Assembly (NCBI GenBank): GCA_938023075.1
Contig: CALHDG010000112.1
Span: 1 to 41,718, forward strand
DNA from: an uncultured Chitinophagales bacterium
Lineage (GTDB): Bacteria; Bacteroidota; Bacteroidia; Chitinophagales; JAHDHT01
Direction of reading: 5' to 3'
DNA: 41,718 bases
In this document: positions 14,029 through 24,980 of the stretch, piece by piece
How the letters are laid out: each line of letters starts with the position of its first letter
Numbering within the stretch: position 1 is the first letter of the stretch
Translations under genes and position numbers: made by a program
The notes under the pieces: generated by a model
Seen by the model: only the letters and a program-made list of their open reading frames with translations
What the model was told of the DNA's origin: nothing
Databases searched by the model: none

Positions 14029-16362
14029 TTAATTTCCTAGCTGACATCCGCTAATCACCACATCATCAAAATAAACCCGGTCATTATTAACCGATGCATC
14101 TACTCGAAACCTAATTTTTGTAGTAGCCGAAAATGCCTGATTGATGATAACCGATTCGCGGTAAGTCTTGTCGTTCTCAAAGTCAGTTCCTTTTATCCAT
14201 GTTTTAAGGCTAGTAAAAGTATTTCCGCCATCTGTAGACAGTTGCAACCAAAAATCTTCCCCATCTTCTAACTCCACCGGAAAGTAAGAAAACTCAACCG
14301 TCAATTCTTCATAATTTGTTGCATTAATATTGTCTGAAGTCATATATGAACTGGAGCTATTATCTCTTATGCGAATGGTATAACTACCACTACTGGCATA
14401 TGGCGCATAATTATTTCGGTAACAATCACCACCGCCATCATTCCAAATACCCCAACCGGTTTCAAAATCTTCGCTGTTAATAATTTGGTTGCTACAATTA
14501 CCTTCATTGCCGGTTTCAAAACAAAAATTACTAATTTCAGAAGCAGCAAAACTTCCGCCCGAAGCTAGTGTATTACCATTAGCAGATAAAACATAAGAGC
14601 CATTGCCAAAGCTGCAACACATGCCATCAGAATAAGCATCATTTATAACAAAGCTGTAACATCCATCAACAAGACATTCGGTTAAATTAAGCGAACTTCC
14701 ATCCGGTTGATTATCGTATGGTCCGCCACTTAATACTACTTCACCAGAAGTGTTGGTAATTTCCCAACTGTTTTCTTCGGGATAATTATCAAAGTTTAGG
14801 GTTAAGTTAAGTTCATTATTTTGGCAACCTTCCGGGCAAGGAGCACATGACCCGCCGCAGTCAATACCTGTCTCATCTTGATTTTGAATGCCATCTGCAC
14901 AAGAAGGGCATGCCGTACACGGACCACCGCAGTCAATACCCGTTTCATTTTGGTTTTGAATACCATCTTCACAAGTTGGCTCTGATGAACCTAAGCAAAA
15001 GTTGGTTGTTTCTGCTTCATTAAAAGTGGCACCGGAAGCTATGGTGTTTCCATTGGCGGTTACACTATATGAACCATTGCCATAACTGCAACAAATACCA
15101 TCTTGAAAAGCATCTTTAATAGTAAAATCATAACATCCATCATTTAAACATTCTATAATCGATAGGGTGCCCCCATCTTCCTCATTAGCATATGGACCAC
15201 CTGAAGCCACTACATTTCCAGCTGCATTGGTGATTTCCCAACTGTTTTCTTCCGGGTAATTATCAAAGTTAATCGTAATTTTTACGTCGTTTGCCTGGCA
15301 ATCAACTTGGCAGGGAGCACAAGGTCCGCCACAATCCGTTCCAGTTTCTCCTTGATTTTGTATACCATCTGAACAATTAGCTACCGGCTCTTCTCCGCCT
15401 CCACCACAAGCATTGGAGTTTAGCAGGCTGGCTCTAAAACCATCGGGATCAAACAAAGCGCGCATTCGTTCAGTTTGCCCTTGTGTAAATAAGTTCATAC
15501 AAGCATCATCCGAATAATCCATATAATTTTGAACCATATCAGTGGAGTTGCAGGAAACGTGTCCAGCAGCACAACCATAATTTGGTGCATCAGAAGTTGG
15601 GGTGTCACCTACAAAATCATCTACACTACAACCACCATCTCCCCAAATATGGCGTAAGTTTAACCAATGTCCCACTTCGTGTGTAGTGGTTCTTCCGCCA
15701 TTAAAAGGCGGTTGGGCAGAGCCGGTAGTTCCAAAAAATTGCGGACTCATCACAACGCCGTCCGTTGAGGCATCATCTCCTGGAAATTGAGCATAACCTA
15801 AAATACCGCCACCAATATTGCAGACCCACATATTTAAATAGCTTCCGGTAGGCCAAGCATCAACACCGCCTTGCGATGCTCTTTTCATCGCATCGTTTGT
15901 ACCCCAACTACTTCGATCTGCAAACTTACGGGTAATGCCATCGGTTGTATTTCCATTGGGGTCTATTGTTGCCATACAAAATTCAATTTGGGTATCTGTT
16001 GCTTGCGACCAAGTATCATTTGCATCGCCGTTAGTTCGTCTAAAATCGTTATTTAATACTTCCATTTGAGAAAATATTTGGGCATTGCTGATGTTTTGTT
16101 CATCGGTTTGATATATAATGTGCACTACTACCGGTATAGTAATAATGCCTGATACTCGCGACGTGTTATTTCGACTTCTTTGGATACATTCTCGTGTAAC
16201 GCGTTCTATTTCGTTCATTTTTCTAGAGAGCGTAGGATCTTGCTCCATTTTGGTTTCCAATACATTCATAGTGCCGCAGTTACGTTGTTGAGCGTTGCCA
16301 TCTATTATTATTAGAAATAGTAAGCTGTTTAGTACAATTGAACACAGAAGATTTTTAACCAT
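14029..16362 (-). CDS. Secreted M43-family zinc metalloprotease with Cys-rich repeat modules
   Basis: A 777-residue protein. A Sec signal peptide (about 1-24, ending G-N-A-Q) is followed by a pregnancy-associated-plasma-protein-A type M43B catalytic domain (about 75-310) with the zinc site H228-E-V-G-H232-W-L-N-L-R-H238 and the conserved [11 protein letters not shown]. Next come short C-x-D-G-I-Q-N-Q-x-E-T-G-x-D-C-G-G units and two copies of a roughly 95-residue module ([12 protein letters not shown] to D-G-I/M-C-C to T/S-N-F-C). The C-terminal 150 residues look like a jelly-roll (S-E-D-F-E-T-G-W-G to V-Y-F-D-D-V-V-I-S). It should be an active extracellular protease. No typical type IX sorting tail is visible. 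The lysyl-oxidase-like protein at 23262 carries the same module. Confidence 0.9.
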
Positions 16363-21620: not shown

Positions 21621-21778
21621 TGAATGCTATCCGGTTGGTGTCACTGCGCTGCAGTTCTCTCTTGCCAATTAACATATGCTACCAAGTTGCCGTTCCTCTG
21701 AAACTTGTGTTTTTTTCAAGAAAATAGGGCGATATGAACTTACCATTAACTTTAATTACTACTTGGTTCTTCTTTAAT

Positions 21779-21786
21779 TATTTTTG
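21779..21786 (+). promoter_or_regulatory. -7 promoter element deciding the start of the HipA-like kinase
   Basis: TATTTTTG is an exact TAnnTTTG match. It would start transcription at about 21793, after the upstream in-frame ATG at 21734 and just before the ATG at 21800. This supports 21800 as the true start and implies a leader of only a few bases. Confidence 0.5.
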
Positions 21787-21799
21787 TACCTTACCATCA

Positions 21800-22579
21800 A
21801 TGCCAAAAATTGAGATCAGAACAGTAAATGTTGTTCAGTACTTGCAGCCTTTAAGAGAAGGCGGTTCGCTTCCTGCCATTGTTAAAGCGGATGATGGTTT
21901 TTTATATGTTATAAAATTTAGAGGTGCCGGACAAGGAAAAAAGGCATTGATCGCAGAATTAATTGGAGGAGAATTGGCTCGGGCAATGGGTTTAAAAGTG
22001 CCCGAGATCGTCTTTATGCAGTTGGACGATTCCTTTAGCAAAACAGAACCGGACGAAGAAATTCAGGATTTGCTAAAGTTTAGCGTTGGCTTAAATTTGG
22101 GCTTGCACTTTTTATCTAGTGCAATAACGTATAATCCCTTAGTAGGCAAAATAGATGCCTTAACTGCCTCGAAAACCGTTTTGTTAGATAGTATCATTTC
22201 CAATATTGATCGAACTGCAAAAAACACGAACTTACTCAATTGGAATAAGGAGTTGTGGTTGATTGACCATGGAGCAAGTCTATATTTTCATCATAATTGG
22301 AATACTTGGGAAAGTCATTTAGATCGAACCTTTCCACCTGTAAAAGATCATGTTTTATTAGAAAAAGCAACACAATTGAGGGAAGCACCGGGTATTATTC
22401 AAAATTTAATTGATGAACAAATTATACAAGCTATTGTCAACTCAATTCCCGAAGATTGGTTGTTAGAAGAATCCACCGAAATGCAAGCGAATGAAATTAG
22501 AGATGCTTATAATCGTTTTCTAAATGCACGCTTGAATAAAATTGATGTATTAGCAAAAGAAGCCATCAATGCAAGGTAG
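21800..22579 (+). CDS. HipA-family kinase-like protein paired with DUF3037
   Basis: With the start at 21800 it has 259 residues (an in-frame ATG at 21734 would add a poorly conserved hydrophobic leader that overlaps the promoter). Features: G-G-S-L-P-A-I-V-K-A near 21-30, Y-V-I-K-F-R-G-A-G-Q (ATP-binding Lys), A-E-L-I-G-G-E-L-A-R, then S-N-I-D-R-T-A-K-N-T-N (catalytic loop with Asp and Asn) and W-L-I-D-H-G-A-S-L (metal Asp). This is the small HipA_2-type branch that is always found beside a DUF3037 gene; its substrate is not known. The DUF3037 gene overlaps its end by 11 bases. It is distinct from the HipBST module at 4318-5843. Confidence 0.82.
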   Translation: MPKIEIRTVNVVQYLQPLREGGSLPAIVKADDGFLYVIKFRGAGQGKKALIAELIGGELARAMGLKVPEIVFMQLDDSFSKTEPDEEIQDLLKFSVGLNLGLHFLSSAITYNPLVGKIDALTASKTVLLDSIISNIDRTAKNTNLLNWNKELWLIDHGASLYFHHNWNTWESHLDRTFPPVKDHVLLEKATQLREAPGIIQNLIDEQIIQAIVNSIPEDWLLEESTEMQANEIRDAYNRFLNARLNKIDVLAKEAINAR

Positions 22580-22952
22580 AGTGACATACGAATTTGCGGT
22601 AATCAGGTTAGTCCCCAAAGTGGAACGGGAAGAATTTTTAAATGTCGGCGTCATTCTTTTTTCAAAGCGAAAGAAATTTTTAGCCATAAAATACTGGATA
22701 GATGAAAATCGTATTAAGGCATTTTCAAACAAAGTAGATATTGACATGTTAAAAGATTCACTAAACGCATGGGAACAAGTTTGTGAAGGCACCCCAAACG
22801 GTGGAAAAATTGGTCAATTAGATATAGCCGAACGATTCCGTTGGTTAGTGGCTTGCAGAAGTACCATCATACAAAGTTCAAAAACGCACCCAGGTTTGTG
22901 TTATCATCCTGAAGAAGTTTTGGAGGAGTTGTTCGAATTGTATGTGTTGTAA
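22569..22952 (+). CDS. DUF3037 protein, partner of the HipA-like kinase
   Basis: A 127-residue protein with the DUF3037 pattern: T-Y-E-F-A-V-I-R-L-V-P (strand), E-E-F-L-N-V-G-V-I-L-F-S, then R-F-R-W-L-V-A-C-R-S-T-I-I-Q-S-S near the end with H-P-G. It starts 11 bases inside the kinase gene, so the two are translationally coupled. The pair recurs in many bacteria. It may be a kinase-regulator or toxin-antitoxin-like pair, but this is inference. Confidence 0.85.
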   Translation: MQGRVTYEFAVIRLVPKVEREEFLNVGVILFSKRKKFLAIKYWIDENRIKAFSNKVDIDMLKDSLNAWEQVCEGTPNGGKIGQLDIAERFRWLVACRSTIIQSSKTHPGLCYHPEEVLEELFELYVL

Positions 22953-23261: not shown

Positions 23262-24980
23262 TTAATCTTCACAACCACTATTGCGCACCTTGAAAGATGC
23301 ATTACCATCAGTACTAAAACCGTTATTTAAGGTAACCCTATCGGCATCAAAAATTACATCAGCGTTGTTTCCAGAAACCACGCCGTTACCAATAATAGTT
23401 TGGTTGGCTTTATAATGTACTTTGGTGTTGTTCAGCGTTTCAGTGACATACAAAAATTCTTCGCAGCCTACTATACAAAAGTTAGTAATTTCTTCGTCGC
23501 CAAAGCTATCCCCTTCAGCCAAAATAGTACCTTCGGCATCGGTTAAGGTATAATATCCACCTTGAAAGTTACAACACATGCCATCGCCAAAATCATCTTT
23601 CATAATTAAGCTGTAACAGCCCGATGGTAGACAAAGTGCTTCAATAATAAAGGTGCGTTGCGGTGTTCCGATATAAAAATCGTGTTCAGCAACAATATTG
23701 CCTGAATAGTCCTGTATTTCCCAAGCCGTTTCATATGGAAAAAGATCGAACTGTAAACCAAGTTGTATTTGATGTGGACAGTTTTCATCTACCACTGTAC
23801 CTATGCATGTGCATCCATCCGGTCCAATTTCATCGTGGTTAGTTAAGGGGTCATTATCATCACAAGCAGCTCCAGCCGGTGCGGGTACTGTAGCGTTGTT
23901 GTCGTCGCAATCTAATTCTGCACATATTCCGTCGTTATCGTTATCTATACAACTTACATCTTCTCCAATACAAAACGAATTAATTTCATTGCTTTCAAAA
24001 CTACCTCCACTTAACAACAACTGACCAGAGGCATCTACTATTTGATAGAATCCATTACCAAAATTACAGCATATGCCATCATCACCACTATCAAAAATGG
24101 TAAAATTATAACAATCGTAGGGTAGGCAAATTACTTCACTTAGTAAGCTATTCGCATCAGCACTGTTATAGGGTCCACCAGAAAACAAGGTGTTGTTTTG
24201 AGTACCTTTAATTTCCCAACGGGTTTCTTGTGGATATTGATCAAATAATAAATTGATGGTTGCTGAAGAACAAGGGGCGGCAGTTGAGCCACCACAAGCA
24301 GTACCATTGCCAAGTACATTTACAAAATGCTCGCCACTGCTGTTTCTCGTTAAATTAAAACAAGCTTGTACCGAGTTATTATTGTAATTTGCTTCGGTTC
24401 TACCAAAAAAATCAGAATGTTCATAAGCATTCACTTTCATTTGAAATTTATAAGTTCCATCGGGTATGTCCGTTACATCAATCCATTGGCAATCTAAGTT
24501 TGAGGCATAAATATCAGTACAATGTGCAGAAATGCCTTGGTTAGTACAAGTATATTTTGGAGCGTACCCTTCATCGCAAGTAATATCTGCCAAACAAAAT
24601 CCATTTTTAAAACCTACCGGTGTAGGGTTACCGTTACTATCTAACAATCTATATTCTGCATAGCCTTCATAGTGCCAATGTCCGTGGCAATAATCAAACT
24701 CCCAAAAATCACTGGGCTCATTTAAAGTTGTTGGGGGGGCGCCTACATAAAAATCTTGATTTCCAATGTTTGAAATTTGAGTAGTAAATCGAAGAATTTG
24801 ACGACTACCCACATCAGACAAACAACCTTCACTGATAAAACATTGATCGTTATTTACTATAACATCAGCACGAAATGAGTTGATAAGTGCTTGCTCACTC
24901 AAAATCAAATCAGGCTGTGCCACAGTAGTATTAACAAAAGCCAGTAAAACAATGTAAAGTTGAAGCAATAATATTCTCAT
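23262..24980 (-). CDS. Secreted lysyl-oxidase-like copper amine oxidase with Cys-rich modules
   Basis: A 572-residue protein. Signal peptide 1-21; lysyl oxidase domain about 22-215; repeat module; a short D-x-D-N-D-G calcium-type and Cys-rich segment (about 315-370); a second repeat module; and a C-terminal coat-hanger-type beta segment ending N-S-G-C-E-D. The oxidase domain keeps the copper ligands H99-G-H101-W-H103. From comparison with remembered animal LOX, it also keeps K125 (G-F-K-N-G-F-C-L) and Y158 (T-D-I-Y, before D-C-Q-W-I-D), which would form the lysyl tyrosylquinone cofactor. It could therefore oxidise lysine side chains outside the cell. The modules (F-D-Q-Y-P-Q-E-T-R-W-E-I to D-G-I-C-C to F-C) match those of the M43 protease at 14029. 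No typical type IX sorting tail is seen. Confidence 0.88.
   Translation of the reverse strand: MRILLLQLYIVLLAFVNTTVAQPDLILSEQALINSFRADVIVNNDQCFISEGCLSDVGSRQILRFTTQISNIGNQDFYVGAPPTTLNEPSDFWEFDYCHGHWHYEGYAEYRLLDSNGNPTPVGFKNGFCLADITCDEGYAPKYTCTNQGISAHCTDIYASNLDCQWIDVTDIPDGTYKFQMKVNAYEHSDFFGRTEANYNNNSVQACFNLTRNSSGEHFVNVLGNGTACGGSTAAPCSSATINLLFDQYPQETRWEIKGTQNNTLFSGGPYNSADANSLLSEVICLPYDCYNFTIFDSGDDGICCNFGNGFYQIVDASGQLLLSGGSFESNEINSFCIGEDVSCIDNDNDGICAELDCDDNNATVPAPAGAACDDNDPLTNHDEIGPDGCTCIGTVVDENCPHQIQLGLQFDLFPYETAWEIQDYSGNIVAEHDFYIGTPQRTFIIEALCLPSGCYSLIMKDDFGDGMCCNFQGGYYTLTDAEGTILAEGDSFGDEEITNFCIVGCEEFLYVTETLNNTKVHYKANQTIIGNGVVSGNNADVIFDADRVTLNNGFSTDGNASFKVRNSGCED

Follow-up and report, generated by a model that had tools for sequence, protein, structure and literature searches.

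The gene at positions 23262-24980 on the minus strand of the window, by which we mean the whole stretch of 41,718 nucleotides analysed here, raises the question of whether a bacterium of the phylum Bacteroidota encodes a genuine lysyl oxidase (LOX) and, if so, on what such an enzyme might act. The window corresponds to a single contig of a genome assembly of 6.1 Mb in 288 contigs, with a completeness of 97%. The open reading frame is real and its product has 572 residues, whose family, fold, residue conservation and domain layout were computed here. The features are as follows.

23262..24980, minus strand: LOX-domain protein of 572 aa, predicted to be secreted (open reading frame; PF01186, E 5.3e-38; 5ze3, E 1.2e-25)
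24918..24980, minus strand: N-terminal signal peptide, residues 1-21 (MRILLLQLYIVLLAFVNTTVA, followed by QPDL), recognised by eye with a predicted cleavage site; residues 2-16 are a helix in the model
24291..24920, minus strand: LOX catalytic domain, residues 21-230 (AlphaFold2 pLDDT 89, pTM 0.84; Z 22.4 versus 5ze3_B)
24672..24686, minus strand: H99-x-H101-x-H103 copper-ligand motif (aligned with LOXL2 H626/H628/H630; invariant in 45/45)
24606..24608, minus strand: K125, predicted lysine of the lysine tyrosylquinone (LTQ) cofactor (aligned with LOXL2 K653; invariant in 45/45)
24507..24509, minus strand: Y158, predicted LTQ tyrosine (aligned with LOXL2 Y689; invariant in 45/45)
23961..24275, minus strand: Cys-rich module 1, largely beta structure in a model of low confidence (module alignment; other proteins of the genome carry the module too)
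23784..23960, minus strand: Asp/Cys-rich linker that by eye looks like thrombospondin-type-3-like calcium-binding repeats (seen in the sequence; homologues L006-L009 have it repeated)
23466..23783, minus strand: Cys-rich module 2 (module alignment)
23271..23414, minus strand: C-terminal GCX_COOH (3-coathanger stack) domain, residues 523-570 (NF045639, E 5.9e-8, 32.4 bits)

LOX was the sole Pfam family matched in the 572-residue protein, with PF01186 (Lysyl_oxidase) covering residues 55-210 at 131.1 bits against a cut-off of 20.4 bits, and the Asp/Cys-rich linker had no Pfam match. Human LOXL2 (5ze3) was the only PDB match by sequence. A sequence-only reading of this locus had called the product lysyl-oxidase-like, an identification that these scores bear out, and it had proposed a structure prediction against human LOXL2 as the means of checking it. 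AlphaFold2, given residues 21-230 and nine homologues, produced the confident domain model listed above, for which Foldseek matched nothing in the PDB at E < 0.001 except the two 5ze3 chains (best E 4.8e-16). VIA-align superposed the model on 5ze3_B with an rmsd of 2.1 over 193 residues at 34% identity, the runner-up being a CARDB domain at Z 8.2. The full-length model was of lower confidence (pLDDT 62, pTM 0.38), and its only significant fold match was again LOXL2. Our analyses of the sequence thus support a genuine LOX-family domain that retains the full set of copper and LTQ residues, in a protein that is predicted to be secreted.

In the pairwise alignment, all five residues that had been named from the sequence as copper ligands and cofactor Lys and Tyr fall on their LOXL2 counterparts (H99-H626, H101-H628, H103-H630, K125-K653 and Y158-Y689), and the earlier numbering of K125 and Y158 is exact. 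The same alignment matches eight LOXL2 cysteines that take part in disulfides, with C47, C53, C98, C129, C135, C145, C154 and C164 opposite C573, C579, C625, C657, C663, C673, C685 and C695, respectively. LOXL2 has ten such cysteines, in five disulfides (PMC9180022); in the window protein the remaining pair may be C207 and C229, which lie beyond the aligned stretch. One difference from LOXL2 is that animal enzymes have a further His upstream (LOXL2 H623, LOX H289) with no equivalent here; it is also lacking in bacterial and fungal LOX and has been argued to be dispensable for copper binding (Grau-Bove et al., PMC4448552). The sequence-only reading would have taken a large separation of K125 and Y158 in a model as refutation. 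That closeness is an unsuitable criterion, because Lys653 and Tyr689 lie 16.6 Å apart in the human 5ZE3 precursor structure, before cofactor formation (PMC9694262), and the model distance therefore cannot refute LTQ formation.

The three His, the Lys and the Tyr are invariant in all 45 LOX-domain proteins (window protein counted) obtained from related genomes and a GTDB scan, the stretch compared having been cut around HxHxH, which every protein examined had, with K and Y not used as selection criteria. G149, D156 and N202 are likewise kept by all 45. In the LOX tree there are two groups, the window protein sharing one of them with LOXL2 and two Pseudomonadota-labelled sequences, although long branches in some rows, including L004 of this genome, make the deep placements unsure. 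The second group is divergent, with weaker PF01186 matches (E about 1e-4 to 1e-9), and holds the other four of the five LOX copies in this genome. Because the five catalytic residues are invariant across these homologues, the best reading of the window protein is an active copper/quinone amine oxidase, and on its sequence and model we consider it probable (about 0.85) that this member of the bacterial LOX family acts outside the cell as a copper/LTQ amine oxidase. Since the LOX domain is one part of a multi-domain protein, it might instead be a catalytically dead surface domain with the LOX fold that serves binding only, but binding alone would not need five catalytic residues held invariant across two deeply split groups, and we regard this explanation as very improbable.

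The layout around the catalytic domain sets the window protein apart from its animal relatives. It has in common with human LOXL2 (5ze3) and animal LOX the catalytic fold, HxHxH, the LTQ Lys and Tyr and the eight aligned cysteines. However, in animal LOX and LOXL proteins the LOX domain is C-terminal, after a propeptide or SRCR domains, whereas here SRCR domains are absent and the LOX domain directly follows the signal peptide and precedes the Cys-rich modules and GCX_COOH. The earlier claim that these modules are foreign to animal enzymes was correct, as two copies of about 104 aa exist (residues about 236-340 and 400-505, with the Asp/Cys-rich linker between them) that are unlike the modules of animal LOX. 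The same module occurs twice in an M43 pappalysin-type metallopeptidase encoded elsewhere in the window (14029-16362, minus strand) and weaker copies are present in roughly a dozen other proteins of this genome. For this reason we take it, as judged by sequence similarity, to be a mobile accessory module and not a LOX-specific feature. Comparison of the module with solved structures gave no convincing match (best E 0.14). A Cys-rich C-terminal domain was noted in 2019 in the LOX of Sorangium cellulosum (PMC6452851), which, as described, is a precedent for such an extension.

The window protein has no Por_Secre_tail (type A, TIGR04183) and carries GCX_COOH in its place, NF045639 matching its C-terminal 48 residues above the cut-off of 26 bits. 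There are 106 GCX_COOH matches and at least 150 type IX type-A sorting tails in this genome, and type IX tails terminate the homologues L006, L008, L011 and L013 as well as the paralogue L005. Given the abundance of GCX_COOH and the tails on those homologues and the paralogue, the predicted export of the LOX protein is well supported. GCX_COOH itself may act as a sorting or anchoring end; our literature search returned no paper naming it. More generally, the source genome encodes a large exported proteome with C-terminal ends of these two kinds.

The sequence-only reading held that a free-living Bacteroidete that cross-links or oxidises lysines of extracellular proteins would be notable. A LOX in this phylum is not a surprise, since Bacteroidetes LOX was published in 2015 (PMC4448552) and LOX was present in 20 of the 59 genomes in our search of relatives, mostly members of other families within the order. 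Across the phylum as a whole, LOX turned up in only 4 of the 392 genomes sampled, the source genome counted, so that it is frequent in this part of the order but rare in other Bacteroidota. The closest scan matches were Saprospiraceae MAGs at 52-57% identity, and the literature search found no paper linking LOX with Saprospiraceae. Within this analysis, the assignment of the genome to Bacteroidota is based on these closest relatives together with its many type IX tails. The two LOX groups tend to share genomes, the second being present in 8 of the 11 genomes with the first (p 0.001, uncorrected for kinship). Two adjoining genes for divergent LOX-domain proteins, L002 and L003 (G000:C27:88571-91118 of the source genome), have Ig-like domains fused and the catalytic residues kept. 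Another LOX protein, L012 (CAMBZJ010000010.1), lies in a record titled Klebsiella pneumoniae, a species label that looks doubtful; its surroundings are proline/arginine-rich coding sequence and apparently very GC-rich.

If the window protein is an extracellular copper/LTQ amine oxidase, it would leave the cell by way of its Sec signal peptide and then, probably, through type IX secretion or a related pathway that recognises its GCX_COOH end. The three histidines would bind Cu(II), which would drive the autocatalytic oxidation of Y158 and its cross-linking to K125, yielding LTQ. Oxidative deamination of primary amines by this quinone would then give aldehydes, ammonia and H2O2. Positioning or tethering of the enzyme outside the cell is probably the job of the Cys-rich modules and the C-terminal domain, and the substrate there would most likely be exposed peptidyl lysines of surface or matrix proteins, although we put protein lysines at only about even odds of being the main physiological substrate.

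A comparison that bears on substrate is the LOX of Haloterrigena turkmenica, the sole characterised prokaryotic LOX found in our literature search, which has the same catalytic residues as the window protein but differs in domain architecture and phylum. This archaeal enzyme is active, BAPN-sensitive and acts on lysine-containing polypeptides with relaxed specificity (PMC6452851), oxidising simple amines, aminoglycosides and polymyxin as well. The window protein could by analogy be a broad-specificity extracellular amine oxidase that gains nitrogen or carbon, or oxidises amine-bearing antibiotics or peptides, and cross-links no protein. Such a role would also sit with the lack of co-occurrence with collagen-like genes described below and of neighbours tied to a substrate. 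Against it, in our judgement, the fact that the genome's five LOX copies belong to large, exported proteins of several domains suggests surface modification over scavenging, and we consider it possible but somewhat unlikely. The H. turkmenica enzyme has no clear native role, and since its cultured cells had no detectable amine oxidase activity (PMC6452851), residue conservation need not, by analogy, imply a strong physiological role for the window protein.

The gene neighbourhood was considered as a source of clues to substrate and gave none in the form of an operon or conserved neighbour, as in nine relatives no neighbour matched the genes adjoining LOX in the window, and the other window matches were to generic families. 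At 21734-22952 of the window, on the plus strand, a HipA-like kinase gene (PF20613) overlaps a DUF3037 gene (PF11236) by a few bases, and the two are likely a two-gene unit.

A more specific role, in which the enzyme would be devoted to cross-linking the collagen-like fibre proteins that the bacterium itself makes, draws on the presence in the same genome of tandem arrays encoding collagen-like proteins of about 370 aa each with signal peptides. Those arrays sit on other contigs, however, and among the 59 genomes collagen-like genes occurred in 8 of the 20 that have LOX and in 16 of the 39 that lack it (Fisher p 1.0); in genomes with the window gene's clade the frequency was, if anything, lower (2 of 11 versus 22 of 48, p 0.17). 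Collagen cross-linking as a general LOX role was rejected on this absence of co-occurrence, and we think it improbable for the window protein. The arrays are L050 (842-8421 of G000:C107), L051 (G000:C276) and L052 (G000:C231); their proteins have G-X-Y repeats and an N-terminus with weak similarity, under the cut-off, to the mosaic adhesive trimer family NF053851. A broader proposal, that Bacteroidota of this order mature their surface matrix by animal-like chemistry, several exported LOX enzymes oxidising lysine residues in secreted adhesins or collagen-like fibres to give a bacterial matrix with covalent cross-links, is in our estimation a long shot.

Bacterial LOX with conserved catalytic residues had already been described from Bacteroidetes, Actinobacteria, Proteobacteria and others (Grau-Bove 2015, PMC4448552), and the window gene, of the same family and phylum and with the same catalytic residue set, belongs to that described group as a further, well-formed multi-domain member. 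The prokaryotic LOX proteins of that study were single-domain in all but three cases, whereas those of this genome and its relatives are large, predicted secreted and multi-domain. The present analysis adds the multi-domain export architecture found in relatives as well, a divergent second LOX group that keeps those catalytic residues, and the lack of association between LOX and collagen-like genes. Our literature search found no report of activity, copper or quinone for any Bacteroidota LOX. If active, the window protein would bring LTQ amine oxidase chemistry into a phylum for which that search found no LOX assay, and it would provide a way to test what purpose bacterial LOX enzymes serve, which is a question in the evolution of the LOX family.
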